A stretch of 64,000 bases of DNA from Alistipes sp. dk3624 (GTDB taxonomy: Bacteria > Bacteroidota > Bacteroidia > Bacteroidales > Rikenellaceae): positions 1,798,001 to 1,862,000 of the forward strand of contig NZ_CP045651.1 in assembly GCF_009557455.1 (NCBI RefSeq), given 5' to 3'. The translations under genes and the position numbers were made by a program. Shown here piece after piece: positions 1,185 to 52,192 of the stretch. The notes under the pieces are model-generated. The model was given only the letters and a program-made list of their open reading frames with translations. It was not told where the DNA came from and made no database searches. The stretch's first letter is position 1, and each line of letters starts with the position of its first letter.

Positions 1185-3776
<2,592 letters not shown>

Positions 3777-3840
3777 TCATCCGGCGTTGCCGCACGACCG
3801 CCCGCCCGGCGCAAGGGCTATCCATAGGTTAATTTCATAA

Positions 3841-3875
3841 AAACACTCCGAAAAGTTTTTTTCGGAGTGTTTTTT
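3841..3875 (+). terminator. rho-independent terminator of clpB
   Basis: A 14-bp perfect stem (AAACACTCCGAAAA with TTTTCGGAGTGTTT, four-base loop) ends in a T run. It lies 64 nt after the clpB stop. Confidence 0.9.
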
Positions 3876-4585: not shown

Positions 4586-4915
4586 ATGAAGAAAGTAAAA
4601 ATAACCGTATTGCGTTCCACTTTTAATGAAGATTTAGCCCGCGACTATGGAATGCCGGGACTCAAGCCATGTAGTCTGATGAAAGAAGGGCAGGTGTTCT
4701 ATGCCGGATTAGGTAAACCCGAAGGTTTCTGCGATGGCGCGTGGCGAACCATCCATCCATACGTGTTTGCTCTTGCCAATGGTGCAAAGCATTTCTATTT
4801 CAATGATTGGGTACGCCAGCCGGGTGTTGCGATTACTTGTTGCAATGACGGGTTGCGTCCAGTCTTTTTCAAGTTGGAGGCAACCGACGAAGAGGTTAAA
4901 TCTCCTTTTATATGA
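4586..4915 (+). CDS. TIGR04076 family protein
   Basis: This small cytosolic protein has 109 residues and no signal peptide or membrane segment. The sequence matches, from memory, the TIGR04076 family: MKKVKITVLRSTFNEDLA at the start, a central EGQVFY...KPEGFCDGAWRTI motif, and ITCCNDGLRPVFFKLEA near the end. The family has no established function. It sits 24 nt upstream of a truncated iron alcohol dehydrogenase in the same orientation, a pairing that suggests a former operon. The IS remnant ends about 20 nt before its ATG, so its original promoter may have been lost. Confidence 0.8.
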   Translation: MKKVKITVLRSTFNEDLARDYGMPGLKPCSLMKEGQVFYAGLGKPEGFCDGAWRTIHPYVFALANGAKHFYFNDWVRQPGVAITCCNDGLRPVFFKLEATDEEVKSPFI

Positions 4916-4939
4916 TAATCAACAAAATAGTATAAGACA

Positions 4940-5092
4940 ATGAAACCGAATCCGAATTATGACCAGTACATTCCTACCTGCATCCTTTTCGGGGCAGGAC
5001 AGTTGAACAACCTTCACGTTCAACCTATGCCGGGCAAAAGGACATTGATTGTCATTTCCAACGGCAAATTCACACGATTAATTAATTTATAG
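4940..5092 (+). pseudogene. iron-containing alcohol dehydrogenase, N-terminal fragment
   Basis: Fifty codons start at an ATG and read MKPNPNYDQYIPTCILFGAG, then MPGKRTLIVISNGK. This is the N-terminus of the group III (iron-dependent) alcohol dehydrogenase family, normally about 380-400 residues. After the conserved ISNGK segment the frame runs into unrelated AT-rich sequence and stops at TAG 5090-5092. The substrate-binding and metal-binding parts are absent, so it is a 3'-truncated pseudogene. The break is the left edge of a junction with the beheaded NVEALA gene that follows. Confidence 0.75.
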
Positions 5093-5148: not shown

Positions 5149-5373
5149 GTGAAACCTGATCTTTTGCAAGCCAATATCGAAGCGTTAGCCCGGGGTGAAT
5201 CTGAAACAGGAGTAGCGGAAGCGATGATTTCTGTCACGAGAGGATCAGAAACCATCGAGAATGACAAAGGGGAAAAAGTTACTCTCGCATACACTAGATA
5301 TACCACTACTGCTTGTATTGGCAAAGGCGAAGTATATTGTGTATCAGGACAAACGGTAACAGTTTACGACTAG
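5149..5373 (+). pseudogene. NVEALA-type peptide gene lacking its signal peptide
   Basis: The 74-codon frame begins at GTG directly after an in-frame TGA. It reads DLLQANIEALARGESETG, the NVEALA family signature (here NIEALA), then a tail with two Cys (TTACIGKGEVYCVSGQ). Intact family members are short exported proteins with an N-terminal signal peptide just before this motif. That part is missing here and is replaced by unrelated sequence shared with the ADH break point. It is therefore likely non-functional as a secreted peptide. It lies 15 nt upstream of a propeller lipoprotein gene, the normal partner order. No function is known for NVEALA proteins. Confidence 0.6.
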
Positions 5374-5388
5374 CAGGCATCCTAGCTC

Positions 5389-6501
5389 ATGAAGCGAATC
5401 CTTTTTTCTTTTTTTTCTATCCTGTTGTATTCGTGCACGTCTTCTCCTTTGGCGACGATGTCAATACCCGTCGTTGAACACAAACCGATCGACGATTCCG
5501 TATTATTCGATGCAAAGCGGATCGTTTTTTTGTCGTCCGATTCCTGCATGATAGGAAGCATCTCACGAATCGTCCTGTGTGACGACAGGATTTATTTATT
5601 AGACACTCAAACCGATGCGGTATGGATATACGACATGCAAGGGAATCATATCGGGCATATTCGGGCAGTCGGACGGGCTGCAAACGAATACATTAACCTA
5701 ATGGACTTTTTCGTGGACAGGGAATCGAAACAAATCGTCCTATATGCGGACCCTTCTAAATTTTTGTTTTACGATTACAACCTGAAACCCACCCGAGTCA
5801 TGAAAGCTCCGGCTTTATTTTACGAAACCGTGAATTCCGGAGAACAAATTGTCTGTTTCAATGCGCGAACTGCCGATCCGGAGTGCTGCATTTCAGTACT
5901 TGCCGAAAAAAATGGCGACCCGCTAAAAATAAAAACTTCCGTCCCCCTGGCACAGCAAGATTACAGCGACGTATTCGTGTCCGGTCGCCAGCTTACCAAA
6001 AGCAAACGCATCAATTTTTCGAAACGGTTCGACAATTCCATTTACAGCGTGGAAAACGGAAGCGTAACCTTGCGATACACGATTGATTTCGGAAAAGCGA
6101 ATCTTCCGGACGGTTTGTTACAGAAAAAACTCCAATTGCAAGAATTTATCGACAAGGTTGCATCGAAAGGATATATTTATTCGATCGTCAATTTGAAGGA
6201 AAACGACTCGCACATTTATTTCAACACTTCTTCACCCGGATTATACCGACTTTCTAAAACGGCTTTCACCGTTCAACACATCCCGGAGATCACAGACAGC
6301 GAATCCGGCATCCGACACTCCATGATGATCGCTACCGAAGATAAAAATAACGAATGGATCTGTTTCTGCAAAAACATGATGGAATTGAAAAACGAAGTGG
6401 ATCTCGATAAAGGTCAGCAAAAAAATAACCCGTTCGTACAAAAAGTAAATTCTTGCAATGAGTCAGACAATCCCGTTCTTTTTTTCTATCATTTGAAATA
6501 A
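5389..6501 (+). CDS. 6-bladed beta-propeller lipoprotein
   Basis: The protein has 370 residues. It has a short signal peptide with a lipobox ending at Cys16 (LLYSC), so it is probably attached to the outer or inner membrane. Propeller blades are visible as repeated IYLLDTQTDAVWIYDMQGN and LFYDYNLKPTRVMKAP type strands. The family motif GRGPNEY is degenerate (GRAANEYI near residue 101). No enzyme motif is seen. It follows the beheaded NVEALA gene and is followed after 41 nt by a paralog of the same length, which suggests a tandem pair. The segment is visibly AT-richer than the flanking housekeeping genes. Confidence 0.8.
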   Translation: MKRILFSFFSILLYSCTSSPLATMSIPVVEHKPIDDSVLFDAKRIVFLSSDSCMIGSISRIVLCDDRIYLLDTQTDAVWIYDMQGNHIGHIRAVGRAANEYINLMDFFVDRESKQIVLYADPSKFLFYDYNLKPTRVMKAPALFYETVNSGEQIVCFNARTADPECCISVLAEKNGDPLKIKTSVPLAQQDYSDVFVSGRQLTKSKRINFSKRFDNSIYSVENGSVTLRYTIDFGKANLPDGLLQKKLQLQEFIDKVASKGYIYSIVNLKENDSHIYFNTSSPGLYRLSKTAFTVQHIPEITDSESGIRHSMMIATEDKNNEWICFCKNMMELKNEVDLDKGQQKNNPFVQKVNSCNESDNPVLFFYHLK

Positions 6502-6542
6502 TCCGACAAATCAAGGAACTGCCAATCTCTTAAATTTGACTT

Positions 6543-7655
6543 ATGAGATATTATTTCCTCTTTTTTCTATTGCTTGTATCGTATTCCTGTTCCCGGGAAG
6601 ATCAAAATCCCGATTCGATCCGGATCGACCTGTCGCGCAGCTACGGCAATGAACAACTGGAAAACATCGTAGACGATATCCGTTTGGTTCCTCTGGAAAC
6701 GAACGACAGTTGCATCGTCGGGCAGTACGACCGGGTAATCGTAAAAGGCCGGTCGATTTTCATTCTGGACAAAATGCAAAACACCGTTTTTTGTTTCGAT
6801 ACAACCGGCAAATTCCGACAGAAAATCAACCGACAGGGACGTTCAGGCCAGGAATATATCACGGCAGACGATTTTATCGTACAGGACAATACGCTTATTG
6901 TTTTCGACAACAACAAATCGCAATTACAATTTTACGACTTTCAGGGAAACTATGTAAAAACAATACCCGTTTGCCAGGGAGATCAAATCGCGGTTAATCC
7001 GGCAGGCGGCTACATCGTTTATTCATCCGTCGCGGACAAATACCATGTCCACACATTCAACGACAAGGGAGAAAAAACCGGCGAATACCTACCCGTCGAA
7101 TCAAAAATAATCAACCTCCCGAGCGCATTTTGCAATAACAAATCCATCCTCTCCTATAATGACGAAACATTCATTCTCAATTTTTTCGACTACAATGTTT
7201 ACTCATTGAAAAACAACGAGCTAAAAATCAAATACCGTTATGACTTCGGGGTGAAAAATATGCCCGACGACCTACTCGAAGTATCCGATCCGGCTTCATT
7301 CATGCAAAAAATAGCAAAAGACAAGAGCGTTCAACAAATTGAAAACTTTACCGAAACACGAAATTGGATAACATTCGATGCGCGCTATCCTGTCTATTAC
7401 AACAAAAATGCACAAGTCTATTATGTATTCAACGAGTTGAAATTTCCTTACAGTCTTTTCTTTTGGCAAGCTCCTTTGGCAATAAACGACGACAATGAAT
7501 ATTTCTCGATCGTTTCCATCAACCAAATCCAGGCTTTGGTCCCGGCTGTGAAAAAATATACCGGACAATACCCTTTCATCGAAACCGTCGCAAGTGCGTC
7601 GATTAATGATAACGACAATAATTGGGTCCTGTTTTTCCGGCTGAAAAACAATTAA
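6543..7655 (+). CDS. 6-bladed beta-propeller lipoprotein
   Basis: The protein has 370 residues and a lipobox at Cys16 (VSYSCSRE). The typical family opening follows: a short linker, an LENIVDDIRLVPLETND strand, IFILDKMQNTVFCFDTTGKF and a degenerate GRGPNEY (GRSGQEYI, near residue 100). The remainder is propeller-like with many aromatic strands and ends in VLFFRLKNN. It is a tandem paralog of the gene at 5389-6501, equal in length but clearly diverged. It ends 28 nt before the duplicated clpB tail. The role is unknown; a surface-exposed binding protein is a guess. Confidence 0.8.
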   Translation: MRYYFLFFLLLVSYSCSREDQNPDSIRIDLSRSYGNEQLENIVDDIRLVPLETNDSCIVGQYDRVIVKGRSIFILDKMQNTVFCFDTTGKFRQKINRQGRSGQEYITADDFIVQDNTLIVFDNNKSQLQFYDFQGNYVKTIPVCQGDQIAVNPAGGYIVYSSVADKYHVHTFNDKGEKTGEYLPVESKIINLPSAFCNNKSILSYNDETFILNFFDYNVYSLKNNELKIKYRYDFGVKNMPDDLLEVSDPASFMQKIAKDKSVQQIENFTETRNWITFDARYPVYYNKNAQVYYVFNELKFPYSLFFWQAPLAINDDNEYFSIVSINQIQALVPAVKKYTGQYPFIETVASASINDNDNNWVLFFRLKNN

Positions 7656-7683
7656 TAATAAACAAATCAACCTTATAAATCCC

Positions 7684-7772
7684 CGAAAAGAGATCTCGGC
7701 CGGCAAGGTGGCCGCAACAGCACGATCACCGTCGACGCCGACGGCAAGGAGGGATTGGTTTTCAAAAACTGA
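7684..7772 (+). pseudogene. clpB 3'-terminal fragment, frameshifted
   Basis: The last ~28 codons of a clpB gene end at TGA 7770-7772. They read ...EISAGKV, then after a single-base deletion ...NSTITVDADGKEGLVFKN. There is no upstream clpB sequence. It is a by-product of the duplication or insertion event that separates it from the functional gene at 1185-3776. Confidence 0.8.
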
Positions 7773-7832
7773 TCGCGCGGCGTCGCCGCGCGACCGCCCG
7801 CCCGGCGCGAGGGCAGCCCTTAGGCTAGTCAT

Positions 7833-7867
7833 AAAAAACACTCCGAGACCGTTCGGAGTGTTTTTTT
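7833..7867 (+). terminator. rho-independent terminator (duplicated clpB terminator)
   Basis: AAAAAACACTCCGA (7833-7846) pairs with TCGGAGTGTTTTTT (7853-7866) and is followed by T residues. It would also stop transcription of the upstream propeller gene at 6543-7655. Confidence 0.88.
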
Positions 7868-7934
7868 ATAATCCATTAGCCTTTCTATACTATATTTAGA
7901 CCTGAATAAACAAATAACGCTGATATATTCTTCT

Positions 7935-7942
7935 TACATTTG
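7935..7942 (+). promoter_or_regulatory. candidate -7 element upstream of NVEALA gene
   Basis: TACATTTG matches the Bacteroidota TAnnTTTG consensus. It lies about 80 nt before the likely start of the peptide gene and just after the duplicated terminator. No convincing -33 TTTG is seen. Confidence 0.4.
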
Positions 7943-8023
7943 TTAATATATTTTATATCGGAATCAAAAATTTAGACAATAACCTTATTTAACAAACTAA
8001 CATAATCACTAAAAACAAAAATC

Positions 8024-8320
8024 ATAAAAAAAAGAACTATTAAATTGTTTTGTGTCGGGATCGCCGGAGCTTTAGCGGTTTCAGCTTATATCCAAAAATT
8101 TCACAAATCTGAAACCGATTTACTGTTTTCCAACATTGAAGCATTGGCCGACCCTGAACAGTCGACAAATAAGTTTGATTGGGTTCCTCCCACAATAAAT
8201 TGTTCAGTCTATGTTTCAAATAAACAAAATCCCACGCAAGAAGGAACCTATATTCCAGGGACAAAAGATACCTGTATTTCAGGATCACAACACTCAGGAT
8301 GCCCCGACTGTTCAATATAA
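8024..8320 (+). CDS. NVEALA family exported peptide, non-ATG start
   Basis: The frame encodes a lysine/arginine start (KKRTIKLF), a hydrophobic signal segment (CVGIAGALAVSAYI), then LLFSNIEALADPE with the NVEALA-type motif. The tail carries four Cys (INCSV, DTCISG and GCPDCSI at the C-terminus). It is about 98 codons if read from ATA at 8024, where intact homologs have ATG followed by several Lys codons. The first conventional alternative is TTG at 8045, which trims the positive N-terminus. Either the gene uses a rare start or its ATG has mutated. It lies 22 nt upstream of a propeller lipoprotein, the standard neighbour. The function of the family is unknown. Confidence 0.6.
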   Translation: MKKRTIKLFCVGIAGALAVSAYIQKFHKSETDLLFSNIEALADPEQSTNKFDWVPPTINCSVYVSNKQNPTQEGTYIPGTKDTCISGSQHSGCPDCSI

Positions 8321-8342
8321 TTGGCAAAACATCATACCATAA

Positions 8343-9536
8343 ATGAAACTTTGGAAATCAATTCTACCTGTTATTGGTATTGCAGGATTATTTTCCTGCA
8401 ATACCAATAACTCCAAATATAAAGTGGCGACATCGGACTCAATCACGATATTGCATGTACACGATATCGACCCGGACTTATCCATTGAAAACCTGATAGA
8501 TTCGGTCGGGTATATTCAATTGGAAACGACCCCCGAATCCCTGTTTGCAGACATGCGAGGGTTGGAAATCTTGAATGACAAATTTTATATCCTCGATTTT
8601 AAAGGAACGACTATTCTGTCTTTCGACAAAAATGGAAAATTTCTCAGAAAAATTTCAGCCCAAGGAAGAGGACCAAATGAGTATATCATGCTGGACTGGA
8701 TGCGTACGGATCCTTACACCAATAAGGTTCTGGCCGTCGATGGATTTTCGAATAAAATACTCATTTATGATGAAAACCTGAAGTTGGAAAAAATCGTGCA
8801 TACCGATTTCCGTCCCCGAATCGTCATTGCGTTCCGCGACCAAAAACTAATCCATTACAATTATGTAAACAAGGAGCAAGAACCTCCCGGTCTACTTAAA
8901 GAGTTTGATCTGCATATTATCGACATGACGGGAAAAACGACGGGAGGTTATATCAAAAACCGGACTCCTGAACACAATATCTTAGGTACTCATGCAACCT
9001 CTTCACATGCAGACGGTAGTATCTCTTTTTTGCCCATATTCGGCGATACTGTCTATAACATATCGGCCGACGGAACCATAAAGCCATCCTACATATTGGA
9101 GATGGAAGGCAAACATATCAAAGGATTATCGGAACGACAACGAAACGAAATCGAATCGGACGAAAATAACCCGTCCCACCGTTACGATTCCTGGGAAGAA
9201 AAGGGTTATCTCCTTCCTTTTGAAATATTCGATAACGGAACCCCGATCTCAATTACGTTCAATTCCAGAGAAAGCCTTCGTTACCTCTATTCACCGCAAA
9301 GCGGAAAATCATATTTATACAACCCGATGAAAATAGAGGGTAACAGTACGCTGAAATTTTTAACGCAGTCCGCCATGGCCCAACAAGGAGAATGGTTTTA
9401 TCAGCCGCACAATGCGATCACAATGCAAAACCTGAGCGACTATTACAAATTCTCCGGCAAATACCTCGATATGATCAACGGAATGGAACCCGATGCCAAC
9501 CCTGTGATTATCTATTACAGATTCAAACCGTTCTGA
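8343..9536 (+). CDS. 6-bladed beta-propeller lipoprotein
   Basis: The protein has 397 residues and a lipobox ending at Cys19 (AGLFSCNTN). The family opening is intact: NLIDSVGYIQLETTPESLFA, FYILDFKGTTILSFDKNGKF and the full GRGPNEYI motif (near residue 115), unlike the two paralogs upstream. Later strands (ILIYDENLKLEKIV, GDTVYNISADGTI) fit further blades. It lies 22 nt after the NVEALA peptide gene and 8 nt before a thioredoxin-like lipoprotein, so the three probably form one transcript. The function is unknown. Confidence 0.82.
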   Translation: MKLWKSILPVIGIAGLFSCNTNNSKYKVATSDSITILHVHDIDPDLSIENLIDSVGYIQLETTPESLFADMRGLEILNDKFYILDFKGTTILSFDKNGKFLRKISAQGRGPNEYIMLDWMRTDPYTNKVLAVDGFSNKILIYDENLKLEKIVHTDFRPRIVIAFRDQKLIHYNYVNKEQEPPGLLKEFDLHIIDMTGKTTGGYIKNRTPEHNILGTHATSSHADGSISFLPIFGDTVYNISADGTIKPSYILEMEGKHIKGLSERQRNEIESDENNPSHRYDSWEEKGYLLPFEIFDNGTPISITFNSRESLRYLYSPQSGKSYLYNPMKIEGNSTLKFLTQSAMAQQGEWFYQPHNAITMQNLSDYYKFSGKYLDMINGMEPDANPVIIYYRFKPF

Positions 9537-9544
9537 GCCGACGT

Positions 9545-10075
9545 ATGAAAATTTCGCACCTTTTGTTGTGGGCGATCGTGTTGACGGCGCCGACCGGTTG
9601 CCAAAGGCGGATCGCCGAAAAGGATAAGTACATCGTAGAATTTCTGTCCCGCCCGGTTCGTTTCGACCATACGTATTCACCGGATCGGGCGGCCGATTCC
9701 CTCCTGTTCGGAACAAAACCGAAACTAATCCACTACATCGATTCTTCGGGATGCATCAGTTGCAAATTCAGCGATCTGAAATTATGGTCGGTAGTCCATA
9801 AGCACTTCCGGATTCCGGTCGTATTGGTATGCGAAACACAAGACATCCCGTCGACACGATACAGACTGCAAAGCATAAACTGGCGGTTCCCGGTAGTGTA
9901 CGATACGGCCGGCCTGTTTCGTACGAACAACCGGATCAGTACTCCGGTACTCCAAACGTTTTTACTGGACAGCGGCAATCATCCGCTGATCGTAGGAAAT
10001 CCGATCGGAAATACGCAACTCTGGAATCTTTATGAAAAAGAGATCGCCCGGTTGACGGACATCCGGGAACGGTAA
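9545..10075 (+). CDS. thioredoxin-like lipoprotein
   Basis: The protein has 176 residues and starts at the ATG at 9545, chosen because it opens a signal peptide with lipobox Cys19 (TAPTGCQRR); an upstream extension of the frame is not gene-like. It contains a putative redox motif, CISC, in DSSGCISCKFSDLKLW (about residues 77-92). It also has a thioredoxin-fold-like order: PVVLVCE, a central PVVYDTAG, and FLLDSGNHPLIVGNPIGN near the end, where the cis-Pro region would lie (STPVLQTFLLD). It is probably a periplasm-facing, membrane-anchored thiol protein. It follows the propeller gene by 8 nt. Its substrate could be the Cys-rich NVEALA peptide, but that is inference. Confidence 0.72.
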   Translation: MKISHLLLWAIVLTAPTGCQRRIAEKDKYIVEFLSRPVRFDHTYSPDRAADSLLFGTKPKLIHYIDSSGCISCKFSDLKLWSVVHKHFRIPVVLVCETQDIPSTRYRLQSINWRFPVVYDTAGLFRTNNRISTPVLQTFLLDSGNHPLIVGNPIGNTQLWNLYEKEIARLTDIRER

Positions 10076-11938: not shown

Positions 11939-12295
11939 ATGTCATTGACTGTTATCGAACTGGAAAACATGGAATTCCAGGCATTTCACGGCTGCTACCC
12001 GCTCGAACAAGTAGTGGGAAACCGTTTCCTGGTGAACGTTACGATCGAAGCCGACCTGTCGCTGGCCGCCGAAAGCGACGACGTGGCCGACACGATCAAC
12101 TACCTGCACGTCTACGAAACCGTCCGCGAACAGATGGCCGTCAAATCGCACATCCTCGAACACGTCGCCCGGCGCATCATCGACGCGATCTACCGCAGAT
12201 TCCCGCCGACACGACGGGTGCGGGTCAAAGTCTCGAAAATGGCGCCGCCGCTGGGCGGAAAAATCGAACGCGTTTCGGTAAGCCTTGAGAAATAG
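11939..12295 (+). CDS. folB: dihydroneopterin aldolase
   Basis: It cleaves 7,8-dihydroneopterin to 6-hydroxymethyl-dihydropterin and glycolaldehyde in folate synthesis. The protein has 118 residues from the ATG at 11939, a normal length. The fold is recognisable from IELENMEFQAFHGCYPLEQ near the N-terminus (with the catalytic-region Glu), NYLHVYETV in the middle and the SHILEHVARRIID helix carrying the second active-site segment. A GKIERVSVSLEK strand closes the protein. An in-frame ATG at 11918 would add seven residues without family support. No other folate gene is adjacent. Confidence 0.88.
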   Translation: MSLTVIELENMEFQAFHGCYPLEQVVGNRFLVNVTIEADLSLAAESDDVADTINYLHVYETVREQMAVKSHILEHVARRIIDAIYRRFPPTRRVRVKVSKMAPPLGGKIERVSVSLEK

Positions 12296-12424
12296 GGCAT
12301 TCCGGAAAGTGTTGATAAAATATTGATAAGATTCGCCACCGGCGCTTCCGGAAAAAACAAAGAGTTCGTAATCTTGTAACGCCGAACCCTGACGAACACG
12401 GGACGGTTAACCGAGTTATTGATC

Positions 12425-15007
12425 ATGTCTGAGAAAACACAAAACAACAGCAAGACCGACGCAATGAAGACGTACAACTATGCCGACGCCGTAGAGGTCG
12501 CCAAACGATATTTCAAGGGCGACGACCTGGCCGCAACGGTATGGGTGAGCAAGTATGCGCTGAAAGATTCGATGGGAAATCTTTACGAAGAGTCTCCGGA
12601 GCAGATGCACCGCCGGATCGCCGACGAAATCGAACGGATCGAACGGCGCTATCCGAATCCGATGACCGCCGCACAGGTGTACGACCTGCTGAAAGAGTTC
12701 CGCTACCTGATTCCGCAGGGGGGGCCGATGACCGGCATCGGCAACAACCTGCAGATCGCGTCGCTATCGAACTGTTTTGTGATCGGACACCGCCATCCGG
12801 CCGACTCGTACGGCGGCATCATCCGCATCGACGAAGAACAGGTGCAGCTGATGAAACGCCGCGGAGGCGTCGGGCACGACCTGTCGCACATCCGGCCCAC
12901 CGGCAGCCCGGTGCTGAACAGCGCGTTGACCTCGACGGGGATCGTGCCGTTCATGGAGCGATATTCGAACTCGACGCGCGAAGTGGCGCAGGACGGACGG
13001 CGCGGCGCGCTGATGTTGTCGCTGTCGGTAAAACACCCGGACGCCGAGAACTTCATCGACGCCAAAGTCGAAACCGGCAAAGTAACCGGAGCGAACGTTT
13101 CGATCAAGATCGACGACGAATTCATGCATGCCGTAATCGACGGCAAAAAATACCACCAACAGTTCCCGATCGATTCCGACAAGCCGATGTACGAAAAAGA
13201 TATCGACGCGCGCGCATTGTGGAACAAAATCGTCTTCAACGCATGGAAGTCCGCCGAACCGGGCGTGCTGTTCTGGGACACCATCCTGCGCGAATCGGTG
13301 CCGGACTGCTACGCCGACCTCGGATTCCGCACCGTTTCGACGAATCCGTGCGGCGAAATTCCGCTGTGCCCGTACGACAGTTGCCGCCTGCTGGCGATCA
13401 ACCTGTACAGCTACGTCGACAAGCCGTTCACGAAGGAGGCTTCGTTCAATTTCGATAAATTCAGGCAGCACGTCGCCGCAGCCATGCGGATGATGGACGA
13501 TATCATCGACCTCGAACTCGAAAAGGTCGAAGCGATCCTCGAAAAAATCTCGAAAGATCCCGAAGACGAGGACATCCGCCAGGTGGAAGTGAAACTGTGG
13601 GAGAAAATCCGCGAAAAAGCGCTTCAAGGACGCCGTACGGGCCTGGGCATCACGGCCGAAGGCGATATGCTGGCAGCCTTGGGCCTGCGCTACGGAACCG
13701 ACGAAGCGACTGATTTCGCCGTCGAAATACAAAAAACGCTGGCAGTGGAAGCCTACCGCACATCGGTCAAGATGGCGCAGGAGCGCGGTAAATTCCCGAT
13801 ATACGACGCCGGGCGCGAAGAGGGCAACCCTATGATCGAACGCATCAAAGAGGCGGACCCGGCCCTTTACGAAGAAATGGTGAAACACGGCCGCCGCAAC
13901 ATTGCGATGCTGACGATCGCCCCGACCGGAACGACCAGTCTGATGTCGCAGACCACCTCGGGCATCGAACCGGTATTCCGTCCGGTCTATACGCGCCGGC
14001 GCAAAGTGAATCCGGGCGACAAGGATGTCAAAGTGACTTTCGTGGACGAAGTAGGGGATTCCTGGGAAGAATACAACGTATTCCACCACAAATTCCTCGT
14101 CTGGCTCGAAGTGAACGGATACGACATCGAAGAGGTCAAAAACATGCCGATGACCGAAATCGACAAACTGGTGGCCCTGTCGCCCTATTACAAAGCGACG
14201 GCGAACGACATCGACTGGGTCAGCAAGGTCAAGATGCAGGGCGCCATTCAGAAATGGGTCGACCACTCGATCTCGGTAACGGTCAACCTGCCGAACGAAG
14301 TGACCAAAGAACTGGTCGCCAAAGTATACCTGACGGCCTGGGAGTACGGCTGCAAGGGCGTCACCGTTTACCGCGACGGATCGCGCGCCGGCGTGCTGGT
14401 CGACAAGAAGAAGAAAAAGGGAGCCAAGACGGAGGAAGCTCCGGTCAATCCGGACGGATACCGGCCGCCGCTCAAACGCCCGCTCGAATTGTCCGCCGAC
14501 ATCGTTCGCTTCAAGAACGGCGAGGAGGACTGGATCTCGTTCGTCGGCATTTACAACGACCGTCCCTACGAGATTTTCACCGGAAAGATCGAGGAGGATG
14601 CGATGTTCATCCCGCAGAAAATCAAAAAAGGCGTGATCATCAAGGTCAAGGACGCCGAAGGCAACAAACGCTACGACTTCCAGTACAAGGACAAATACGG
14701 GTACACGAACACGATCGGCGGCATCTCGCGCCTGTTCGACGAAGAGTTCTGGAACTACGCGAAACTGATTTCGGGCGTGCTGCGCAACGGTATGCCGATT
14801 CTGGACGTGGTGACTTTGATCGAATCGCTGCACCTGAACAGCGAGAGCATCAATACGTGGAAAAACGGCGTGGCACGTGCGCTGAAACAATACATTGCCA
14901 ATGGAACCAAAGCCAAAGAGAAGTGTCCGAACTGCGGACAGGAAACCTTGGTTTATCAGAACAGCTGTCCGGTTTGCATGAGCTGCGGTTACTCCAAATG
15001 CGGATAA
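12425..15007 (+). CDS. nrdJ: adenosylcobalamin-dependent ribonucleoside-diphosphate reductase (class II)
   Basis: It reduces ribonucleotides to deoxyribonucleotides using a radical generated from vitamin B12, independently of oxygen. The protein has 860 residues from ATG 12425. Recognisable parts are the first active-site Cys in ASLSNCFVIG (Cys117), the finger-loop segment NPCGEIPLCPYDSCRL, and SYVDKPF. The core carries TIAPTGTTSLMSQTTSGIEP, typical of the TIGR02504 family. A C-terminal zinc-ribbon-like tail (CPNCG...CPVCMSCGYSKCG) fits the class II C-terminal redox region. There is no separate small subunit, as expected. No cobalamin riboswitch could be made out in the 129 nt upstream. Confidence 0.94.
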   Translation: MSEKTQNNSKTDAMKTYNYADAVEVAKRYFKGDDLAATVWVSKYALKDSMGNLYEESPEQMHRRIADEIERIERRYPNPMTAAQVYDLLKEFRYLIPQGGPMTGIGNNLQIASLSNCFVIGHRHPADSYGGIIRIDEEQVQLMKRRGGVGHDLSHIRPTGSPVLNSALTSTGIVPFMERYSNSTREVAQDGRRGALMLSLSVKHPDAENFIDAKVETGKVTGANVSIKIDDEFMHAVIDGKKYHQQFPIDSDKPMYEKDIDARALWNKIVFNAWKSAEPGVLFWDTILRESVPDCYADLGFRTVSTNPCGEIPLCPYDSCRLLAINLYSYVDKPFTKEASFNFDKFRQHVAAAMRMMDDIIDLELEKVEAILEKISKDPEDEDIRQVEVKLWEKIREKALQGRRTGLGITAEGDMLAALGLRYGTDEATDFAVEIQKTLAVEAYRTSVKMAQERGKFPIYDAGREEGNPMIERIKEADPALYEEMVKHGRRNIAMLTIAPTGTTSLMSQTTSGIEPVFRPVYTRRRKVNPGDKDVKVTFVDEVGDSWEEYNVFHHKFLVWLEVNGYDIEEVKNMPMTEIDKLVALSPYYKATANDIDWVSKVKMQGAIQKWVDHSISVTVNLPNEVTKELVAKVYLTAWEYGCKGVTVYRDGSRAGVLVDKKKKKGAKTEEAPVNPDGYRPPLKRPLELSADIVRFKNGEEDWISFVGIYNDRPYEIFTGKIEEDAMFIPQKIKKGVIIKVKDAEGNKRYDFQYKDKYGYTNTIGGISRLFDEEFWNYAKLISGVLRNGMPILDVVTLIESLHLNSESINTWKNGVARALKQYIANGTKAKEKCPNCGQETLVYQNSCPVCMSCGYSKCG

Positions 15008-50723: not shown

Positions 50724-50926
50724 ATTTCCGGTTCGACAGTCGTTTCCGCAGGTTTGAAAAAACGGACGTATGGAATTCTGTAAAAATGTTCCGAGTGTTC
50801 CTGTATTTCTTTGATCGGAACGAAAAGTTGAGTCGTTTTTAGATCTTTGTTCATAAGACAAAGAAACGGAACGTTTTCTTTATCCAGTATACCTAATCGG
50901 ATATCGTGAGTTACATATAATTTCAT
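50720..50926 (-). CDS. small ORF coupled to propeller gene, possible thioredoxin-like C-terminal remnant
   Basis: The 68-residue frame starts at an ATG overlapping the stop of the propeller gene (ATGA at 50926-50923). It has no signal peptide. The sequence DIRLGILDKENVPFLCLMNK, then LFVPIKEIQEHSEHFY, loosely resembles the end of the thioredoxin-like lipoproteins that often follow propeller genes. It could be a remnant with the redox domain lost. The overlap and base composition argue for real coding, but no firm homology is claimed. It converges tail to tail with the PBP gene. Confidence 0.45.
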   Translation of the reverse strand: MKLYVTHDIRLGILDKENVPFLCLMNKDLKTTQLFVPIKEIQEHSEHFYRIPYVRFFKPAETTVEPEI

Positions 50927-52125
50927 GGATTATTCTTGATATGAGCTACGACGATGACCGGATTGTCGTTTGCTGTGATTGTTTTGCTTAGGTTCGCTAT
51001 TTGAGGATTATCACTGTTTCGAAAATAATCGAAATAGAAAGATTCCATAACATAATAGAAGTTTTTACCGTCTGTCGCCATAGGCATAAACGGAATCGTT
51101 TTGTCCAGATCGTTGACGACGGGAATCCGGTTATCGGTGTTTTTTTCCCAAATGCGGACTCCTTCCTTAAATGTTTTGCGCCGGGGATTGTAAAATCCGT
51201 AATAACTTTTATTGTTATGCCGGTAAAAGAGATAAACAACGCTGTCGCTTTCGAGCATGTTGCAAATTACCGGATATTGAGGCTTAGAATCTTCCTGTGA
51301 GGCTTCTTGAGCCGATTTACTGCTACTTGCCGTCCGTTGTAGTTCCCGCATTTGGGGGGTAACGCCGAGGTCTACGTAATATTCCGGCTGAACCTTATTG
51401 TTGCAAATACTGTAAACGGTATCGTTTAGCGGCATGATTAGGTGTACCGTATCGTTCGAATAAGTGCTGGACAGATTGTTGATAAGACCCGTAATTCCTA
51501 ATCGGTTGATTGTGCTGTTGAAAAATAATTTTGATTGAGTTTTACGGGTTTGCAGGTCGAAAAGAATCAGATTGGGAGATTTGGAACGGATGCTGTAATT
51601 CGGATTGTTGATGTAGTCACAATAGCAGGCCAGTCGGTTGTTTCCCAAATAAGCGATCGAGGTCGTGATAAAATCCAGTCTGATTTTTTCGATAAATTCT
51701 CCTTCATAAGTGAATATGGAAATTTTCTGGGCCATATCGTCGTGAACGATCAGTCTTTTGTTAGAGACGTCTACGGCGACGTCGTTCAAGCTCAAATATT
51801 CTCCGGGCCCTCGGCCTTTTTTATTGATTTTACGGATAAACTTTCCCGATTTATCGAAGATGTAAATCGTTTGCGTGATATCTTTATCCACTATTAGAAT
51901 ACGGTCTTTCAACGGGATTATTTTATCGATTACTCCTATTAGGTTCGAAGTATCGGTAGCCAGTTTGATATAAGATAATGAATCCGCAATGTCAGAAAGA
52001 TGTAGCAGGTGTTCTGTCGTTTGCAACGGCGGATGCAGAACGGTTAGCCCGGTCGCCGGACGATTCCGGTGGCAGGCCGACAACAGGATTGCACCTGAAA
52101 AAATAACAAACAGCGTTCGGGTCAT
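50923..52125 (-). CDS. 6-bladed beta-propeller lipoprotein
   Basis: The protein has 400 residues from ATG 52125. The signal peptide ends in a lipobox with Cys18 (ILLSACHRN). The family features are intact: IADSLSYIKLATDTSNLIG, RILIVDKDITQTIYIFDKSG, KFIRKINKKG and the GRGPGEYL motif. An upstream in-frame ATG at 52164 is rejected because it hides the signal peptide and lies in the promoter -7 element. A small coupled ORF follows. The gene is not near an NVEALA gene. The function is unknown. Confidence 0.82.
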   Translation of the reverse strand: MTRTLFVIFSGAILLSACHRNRPATGLTVLHPPLQTTEHLLHLSDIADSLSYIKLATDTSNLIGVIDKIIPLKDRILIVDKDITQTIYIFDKSGKFIRKINKKGRGPGEYLSLNDVAVDVSNKRLIVHDDMAQKISIFTYEGEFIEKIRLDFITTSIAYLGNNRLACYCDYINNPNYSIRSKSPNLILFDLQTRKTQSKLFFNSTINRLGITGLINNLSSTYSNDTVHLIMPLNDTVYSICNNKVQPEYYVDLGVTPQMRELQRTASSSKSAQEASQEDSKPQYPVICNMLESDSVVYLFYRHNNKSYYGFYNPRRKTFKEGVRIWEKNTDNRIPVVNDLDKTIPFMPMATDGKNFYYVMESFYFDYFRNSDNPQIANLSKTITANDNPVIVVAHIKNNP

Positions 52126-52161
52126 GTTTTTACCGGATGGTCGATCGGGCGTTTCGTATTC

Positions 52162-52192
52162 CAAAGTTATGAAATAAAGTCTTTTCAGAAAA
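52162..52192 (-). promoter_or_regulatory. candidate promoter of propeller gene 50923-52125
   Basis: On the minus strand TAACTTTG (52169-52162) is an exact -7 match, with TTTT 19 nt upstream in place of TTTG. It overlaps the ATG at 52164, which supports the start at 52125. Confidence 0.6.

Follow-up and report, generated by a model that had tools for sequence, protein, structure and literature searches.

The 64,000 bp stretch of the Alistipes sp. dk3624 genome analysed here (the window; contig NZ_CP045651.1, positions 1,798,001–1,862,000) carries a three-gene cassette coding for a small peptide with an NVEALA-type motif, a 6-bladed beta-propeller lipoprotein, and a thioredoxin-like lipoprotein with a CxxC motif. 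Comparison of many loci shows that, at the sequence level, these three components form a conserved gene unit, which is widespread in gut bacteria and apparently undescribed. The reading we favour, although it is a tentative one, is that they belong to a secreted disulfide-peptide system that is regulated and has propellers as cognate partners, and that the window holds a satellite cassette together with the remains of a second. The system looks like one of peptide signalling or warfare. The genes concerned are:

8024..8320, + strand: NVEALA prepeptide gene of the variable (type II) class, with a hydrophobic N-terminal segment; PF14055, 27.6 bits (cut-off 27)
8343..9536, + strand: 6-bladed beta-propeller lipoprotein P0003, adjoining the 8024 peptide; PF17170 (DUF5128), 117 bits
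9545..10075, + strand: thioredoxin-like lipoprotein P0002 with a CISC motif; predicted fold with ResA/StoA likeness
5149..5373, + strand: truncated NVEALA relic; PF14055, 19.4 bits, below the cut-off of 27
5389..6501, + strand: 6-bladed beta-propeller lipoprotein P0004; PF17170, 107.5 bits
6543..7655, + strand: 6-bladed beta-propeller lipoprotein P0005; PF17170, 130.6 bits

The peptide stop (8320) lies 22 nucleotides before the propeller ATG (8343), and eight nucleotides separate the propeller stop (9536) from the ATG of the CISC protein (9545); a preliminary description of the window had given this neighbourhood correctly in both its coordinates and its spacings, and the peptide and the propeller match PF14055 and PF17170. 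The second peptide that it proposed, a relic at 5149–5373 heading the propellers at 5389–6501 and 6543–7655, is likewise present, truncated and scoring under the Pfam threshold. The 8024 peptide has the motif NIEALA and a Cys-containing tail ending in GCPDCSI, and by eye a similar tail is present in a paralogue elsewhere in the genome (L012:13867–14223). The tail of the relic, CIGKGEVYC, when judged by eye, fits the conserved type I peptides described below, and each of the three propellers shows a lipobox cysteine, as does the CISC protein. For P0002, neither Pfam nor NCBIfam gives a match at E ≤ 1.

Recurrence within the source genome

The 3.02 Mb source genome has 20 matches to PF14055 at E ≤ 10, eight of them above the family cut-off, and 25 matches to DUF5128 at E ≤ 0.001. 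From gene maps and Pfam matches, a propeller is directly downstream on the same strand for 16 of the 20 NVEALA matches, and in three of these pairs it is of the TolB_like type; one of the remaining four peptides precedes a second peptide (counting it as paired would give 17 of 20) and three have no adjoining propeller. Relative to an assumed 28 propellers per 2,500 genes, a pairing of 16 in 20 has p ~3e-28. There are two instances in which the full three-gene order is repeated. The first is at L012 (peptide 13867–14223, propeller 12663–13844, CxxC lipoprotein 12143–12661), where the CxxC lipoprotein has 37% identity to P0002. The second is at L013, with a different CxxC protein (L013:8115–8537) that is thioredoxin-like by eye and has no Pfam match. 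A chance neighbourhood is ruled out by this recurrence together with the loci in other genomes.

A larger main locus at ~263–284 kb in the same genome contains genes for a Wzy_C/TPR protein, an S26 peptidase and a CxxC lipoprotein and others that by eye are TolC-RND-like, and continues with propellers, peptides, a sensor kinase split over two frames and a response regulator. One of the two S26 genes in the genome is located here, at 265.5 kb, between the Wzy_C/TPR gene and the CxxC lipoprotein gene. A main-locus peptide (L009:9811), which has two cysteines and does not fit the type I pattern, adjoins the split sensor kinase; there is no sensor-regulator gene adjoining the window cassette. With the kinase gene (L009:10188–11532) interrupted in this way, the two-component regulator of this strain may be broken.

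Spread and composition of the loci in other genomes

At E ≤ 1e-4, NVEALA matches are present in 15 of 295 genomes of the order and 2 of 296 of the phylum, the source genome being included in both. P0002 alone found no relative when used as the query of genome contigs. A query built from an alignment of seven CxxC stretches (A3), searched in named genomes, gave 174 CxxC relatives, and the best 80 were kept and yielded 79 loci. The A3 sequences came from loci first fetched through NVEALA matches, so that co-occurrence in the 79 loci is descriptive and not unbiased. Parabacteroides, Bacteroides, Phocaeicola, Tannerella and Petrimonas are represented among others, with one locus from a Clostridiales bacterium (a metagenome-assembled genome) and the rest from members of the Bacteroidales or from a Bacteroidia bacterium; P. 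vulgatus ATCC 8482 carries one of the main loci (L145).

NVEALA peptides were found in 71 of the 79 loci, TolB-like propellers in 63, DUF5128 propellers in 49, transglutaminase-like lipoproteins in 47, S26 peptidases in 45 and Wzy_C/TPR proteins in 34 (Pfam on examples), and the propellers fall into three families (DUF5128, TolB_like and DUF4221). RND adaptor-like genes (16 loci), pump-like genes (13 loci) and TonB-receptor-like clusters (only 6 loci) were recognised by eye, as were all RND, TolC and TonB labels used here for genes neighbouring the unit. The exact order NVEALA–propeller–CxxC occurs in 33 loci and NVEALA–CxxC in 21, with neither in 23 and a contig edge in two. The 79 loci contain 163 peptides, identified by a motif and a hydrophobicity filter that lets in a few false members, and the gene 3′ of the peptide codes for a propeller in 121 cases and for a CxxC protein in 24. 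Among 22 loci of other genomes that were fetched through NVEALA itself, nine have all three components, eight have no CxxC gene, two no motif-positive peptide and three no DUF5128-type propeller.

Gene content thus shows main loci that add to the unit a putative regulator, an S26 peptidase and a Wzy_C/TPR protein, often a transglutaminase-like lipoprotein, and sometimes an RND-like pump. The preliminary description had proposed that peptide, propeller and redox lipoprotein act as one unit, and had named the lack of a conserved three-gene order in other genomes as evidence to the contrary; the order recurs at L012, exactly in 33 of the 79 loci, and on a plasmid with a second CxxC protein. Its interpretation is supported for the unit and is incomplete in that the cassette appears to be a satellite of a larger locus with a regulator, a signal peptidase and other genes, and in that there are two classes of peptide. 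The roles that it gave the propeller (receptor or carrier) and the CISC protein (forming or reducing disulfides) are candidate roles. Two same-genus loci (L067 and L070) have tandem DUF5128 propellers beside RND-efflux-like genes and no detectable NVEALA peptides, and in the window itself two more DUF5128 lipoproteins (1–817 and 50923–52164, both on the minus strand) are without a detected NVEALA peptide.

The cassette is also carried on plasmids. On the P. vulgatus plasmid pPvulCL10_1, a gene annotated as NVEALA is followed by those for a 6-bladed propeller and a CxxC protein (L182:8250–8780, thioredoxin-like by eye), as in the window; plasmid pBdorCL06T03-4 of P. dorei carries this cassette too, along with a further NVEALA–lipoprotein pair and TraG/TraM genes. 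Both are classed as non-mobilizable in PLSDB, although mobC and relaxase genes are present on pPvulCL10_1. On a plasmid of B. fragilis that is typed as mobilizable, an NVEALA gene is followed by a hypothetical protein, and one plasmid locus has a TonB receptor and a SusD gene downstream. The plasmid peptide was matched in five of 72,556 plasmid records; the plasmid propeller has three partial matches (32–41% of the query) in unannotated phage records. A literature search for pPvulCL10 found nothing. No paper naming NVEALA was found in a search whose coverage excludes most subscription papers and bioRxiv, and the papers that mention DUF5128, DUF4934, PF17170 or PF14055 appear to be unrelated.

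Two classes of NVEALA peptides and an associated regulator

A nine-residue Cys loop, C-x3-[GC]-[SDENTC]-[VILYT]-x-C, is present in 65 of the 163 peptides (type I), compared with 0.67 per shuffle of the mature parts, and 57 of the 65 have exactly two cysteines. A regulator gene adjoins 56 of the 65 type I peptides and none of the 98 variable ones; because the pattern was loosened after inspection of the sequences, the first being too strict, the Fisher p of 1e-34 is descriptive. Median lengths of the mature parts in the two classes are 34 and 39 residues, and the number of cysteines in the mature part is even in 145 of the 163. The residue before the presumed cut is Ala in 162 of 163, noting that the search pattern allows only A/G/S/T/N here and requires Ala at −3. 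There is an acidic residue at +3 past the motif in 146 peptides. GG, GA or GS follows the motif directly in 15 of the 163, all in other genomes, and the window peptide has DP at this position.

The regulator is a membrane protein of ~346 residues with a transmembrane–periplasmic–transmembrane layout and a C-terminal winged helix, and is present in 58 of the 79 loci. Trans_reg_C was detected in all three regulators tested, above the cut-off in one. In a regulator search, 375 of 393 genomes gave a match, which in most cases covers the winged-helix domain alone; six matches are strong (E < 1e-40), and four of these adjoin an NVEALA gene. No convincing NVEALA peptide was found at L216–L218. The periplasmic domain also has weak similarity to NVEALA-adjacent two-component sensors (E 8e-5 for L096, 2.7e-4 for L094, 0.38 for L099 and 1.7 for L098); the L009 sensor of the source genome is not among the best 30 matches listed.

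Inheritance of mature peptides and propellers

Within a locus, variable peptides have median identities of 80% in the leader and 25% in the mature part (57 pairs), and between loci these are 45% and 26%. We compared 83 non-redundant variable peptide–propeller pairs, of which 36 have a clear relative at another locus by their mature part. In 25 of these 36 the closest such relative also has the top-ranked propeller, against a permutation null with a mean of 0.41 and a maximum of 4 in 500; the count is 29 of 83 when no similarity threshold is applied. If the relative is picked by its leader, the top propeller is found in 1 of 83. The mature part and the propeller are thus inherited together and the leader is not, a pattern that fits specific pairing.

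Predicted structures of the lipoproteins

The AlphaFold2 model of P0002 (predicted local distance difference test score, pLDDT, 88.4) has ResA as its best PDB match (E 3.2e-6, template modelling (TM) scores 0.51/0.63) and also matches CcmG; the ResA and CcmG matches have E values of 3e-6 to 2e-5 and TM scores of ~0.5 by query length. The family profile matches StoA (E 1.2e-5), and both cysteines of the CxxC motif are invariant in 65 aligned sequences. P0002 is thus predicted to have a ResA/TlpA-like thioredoxin fold with a paired CxxC. Most of the CxxC proteins (71 of 90) are longer than 250 residues, and both of the long homologues tested have DUF1573 at the C-terminus. A proline, which we presume should precede the TFLLD strand, is absent from the CxxC alignment.

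The model of P0003 (mean pLDDT 87.3) has its best PDB match in 4raa (E 6.1e-23, TM scores 0.73/0.81), an entry for a B. fragilis protein described as putative and exported, and the P0003 sequence profile matches the same entry (E 5.5e-58). Other propellers are matched by the model as well, BtuG2 and BT1954 among them. We know of no ligand for the large propeller lipoprotein families DUF5128, DUF4221 and TolB_like.

A proposed mechanism and its alternatives

In the system that we tentatively propose, the hydrophobic segment at the N-terminus would take the prepeptide into the Sec export route, and cleavage would follow the Ala-Leu-Ala of NVEALA, with the signal peptidase encoded in the locus as the probable enzyme. 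The CxxC lipoprotein would form or isomerise disulfides in the mature peptide, which is rich in Cys. The cognate binding partner of this peptide would be the adjoining propeller, acting as a receptor, a carrier or in self-protection. The Cys-loop peptide beside the regulator may be an autoinducer sensed by the periplasmic domain of that regulator, and the variable peptides may be effectors, for which action against or between related bacteria is the most plausible. A bolder version is that this is a Bacteroidales class of ribosomal peptide communication and competition in its own right, with a Sec-type prepeptide, an NVEALA motif cut by a dedicated S26 peptidase, a locus-specific thioredoxin lipoprotein closing the disulfides, a Cys-loop autoinducer driving a winged-helix regulator, and diversifying effectors matched by propeller receptors or immunity proteins, on cassettes that also travel on plasmids; we consider it unlikely that all of this holds.

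Several observations weigh against the proposed system. With the first, stricter pattern, type I has 18 members, of which 15 adjoin a regulator, and 41 other peptides are beside one as well. Most variable pairs are unrelated, which leaves a weak correlation between peptide and propeller over the full set (Mantel r 0.06, p 0.003); for type I pairs r is 0.46, with the nearest-mature relative having the top propeller in only 8 of 25. Linkage alone could explain the co-inheritance. Distribution is patchy, with no NVEALA match at E ≤ 0.001 in 20 relatives, eight of them of the same genus (DUF5128 propellers are present in eight of the 20). No motif beyond those of first-order Markov shuffles is shared upstream of 19 of the peptide genes in the source genome, and two strong, full-length relatives of the regulator (L215) have no NVEALA gene within 9.3 kb. 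The transglutaminase match is under the Pfam cut-off, the A3 query was seeded through NVEALA loci, and the set of 79 includes near-duplicates and several loci from a shared genome. Finally, the window peptide has an ATA start and its sister genes have damaged starts.

The last point bears on whether the window copies are functional. The codon at 8024 is ATA, with ATC one codon upstream, no ATG occurs in this frame from the last upstream stop onward, and a start at the first TTG (8045) would give a product without the charged N-terminus. Translation of this copy is therefore doubtful, and it may be silent. An in-frame stop immediately precedes the relic, which lacks a signal segment. Damaged or unusual starts are present in several NVEALA genes of this genome (L012:8157, L011:7702, L016:7942 and window 8024), which suggests ongoing loss. 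To the left of the relic, the window has at 4586–5092 a TIGR04076 gene (96 bits) and then a short frame (4940–5092) that we take to resemble the cut start of an alcohol dehydrogenase gene. Between the two groups of propellers there is a repeat:

7687..7867, + strand: second clpB 3′ end and terminator, frameshifted; 81% identity over 187 aligned columns to the true clpB end at 3693–3875

This suggests that the segment 3777–7686 was inserted or recombined at the 3′ end of clpB. Neither this repeat nor the ATA codon is mentioned in the preliminary description. The window copies could be decaying and now inactive leftovers of a once-expanded family, a reading compatible with any view of the family as a whole; the ATA start, truncated relic, cut-looking short frame, clpB duplication and damaged starts elsewhere all point this way. 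None of the frames for the three propellers and the CISC protein is interrupted, with both cysteines kept, and we regard inactivity of the whole set as possible and somewhat doubtful.

A bacteriocin/immunity system is a rather unlikely alternative to the proposed system, with the variable peptides as narrow-spectrum toxins, each adjoining propeller as the immunity protein of the producer, and extra propellers as orphan immunity genes. The pairing and co-inheritance of mature part and propeller, the variable mature part behind a homogenised leader, and plasmid carriage are all as expected from it, as are the excess of DUF5128 over NVEALA matches in the source genome (25 and 20) and the same-genus genomes that have propellers without detected peptides. 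It is harder to reconcile with propellers of three families (DUF5128, TolB_like and DUF4221), and to our knowledge no immunity activity is known for propellers. The bacteroidetocins give this reading no support by comparison, as no obvious immunity gene was found in their regions, according to the text available (PMC6671954).

We find it improbable that the loci serve envelope or redox homeostasis, with periplasmic peptide–propeller–CxxC complexes reporting the envelope or thiol state and the regulator sensing this state instead of a diffusible peptide. The lipoprotein-type or hydrophobic export sequences of the partners, the predicted ResA-like redox fold, and the RND adaptor- and pump-like genes (16 and 13 of the 79 loci, by eye) are compatible with such a role, but strongly diversified tails with matched propellers are unexpected for a housekeeping sensor, as is the patchy distribution (15 of 295 genomes of the order, the source genome included). 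A pilin-like surface-fibre or glycopeptide system, in which a dedicated signal peptidase would trim the peptides to small surface subunits that the Wzy_C/TPR protein modifies, would account for S26 in 45 and Wzy_C/TPR in 34 of the 79 loci but is very improbable, given mature parts with medians of 34 and 39 residues and even Cys counts, and a propeller of its own adjoining 121 of the 163 peptides, which a polymer would not need.

Bacteroides, Phocaeicola and Parabacteroides rank among the main bacteria of the human gut. If the proposed system is correct, it would link the propeller families to specific secreted peptides, provide gut anaerobes with a peptide-sensing circuit open to testing, and offer many natural disulfide peptides with matched binding partners.

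Comparison with known systems

Bacteroidetocins are also small Cys-containing secreted peptides of the Bacteroidales encoded beside a gene for a thiol oxidoreductase thought to form disulfides (Coyne et al. 2019, PMC6671954, from the text available), and the window cluster has a predicted counterpart of that gene in P0002. According to the same text, their leaders of 15–16 residues are cut after GG and they are exported by a peptidase-containing ABC transporter. NVEALA peptides have instead a hydrophobic N-terminus and the NVEALA motif and do not have the GG leader, and their loci add propeller, regulator and S26 genes; the word propeller does not occur in the main text of that paper. A GG-leader/C39 route is ruled out for the source genome, which has no C39 (PF03412) match, with GG, GA or GS after the motif in only 15 of 163 peptides of other genomes. 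C39 genes are present in seven of eight other genomes with NVEALA loci, and are far from the locus in the two cases where they were placed (L145 and L154).

The Bacteroidales clusters for ribosomally synthesised and post-translationally modified peptides, as far as the main text of PMC10352776 describes them, similarly have precursors with a leader and a core, but pair GG-motif precursors with peptidase-containing transporters; neither propeller nor signal peptidase appears in that main text. In B. thetaiotaomicron, annotations in part of PMC10434189 include BT0662 as O-antigen ligase, BT0664 as 6-bladed propeller, BT0667 as signal peptidase I and BT0669 as RND adaptor. These fit an NVEALA main locus, a likeness by annotation only; the part available does not handle BT0662–BT0669 as a system, and the second value in their rows is 0.11–0.44.

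Among propellers, BtuG2 and BT1954 are, in the accounts available, likewise Bacteroides surface lipoproteins that bind a small ligand. Their ligands are cobalamins and their partners TonB-dependent transporters, whereas only 6 of 79 NVEALA loci have a TonB-like cluster. P0002 shares its predicted thioredoxin fold and CxxC motif with TlpA, ResA and StoA (model and profile), but has no Pfam match and not the expected proline, and its homologues are long, with a C-terminal DUF1573 in the two tested.

In the class II bacteriocin regulons of lactic acid bacteria, a signal-type peptide is encoded beside a membrane sensor, and variable peptides share one leader type and have partner genes. The NVEALA loci of other genomes are alike in having a conserved signal-type peptide by a putative membrane sensor and variable peptides with a shared leader, each with a partner gene. 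They differ in their Gram-negative host, the leader, the propeller lipoprotein as partner and a membrane regulator that is mostly one-component, and in that the source genome has no GG/C39 route. By analogy, a class II bacteriocin regulon with its pheromone would be the closest known system in its working, and the bacteroidetocins the closest in the same order.

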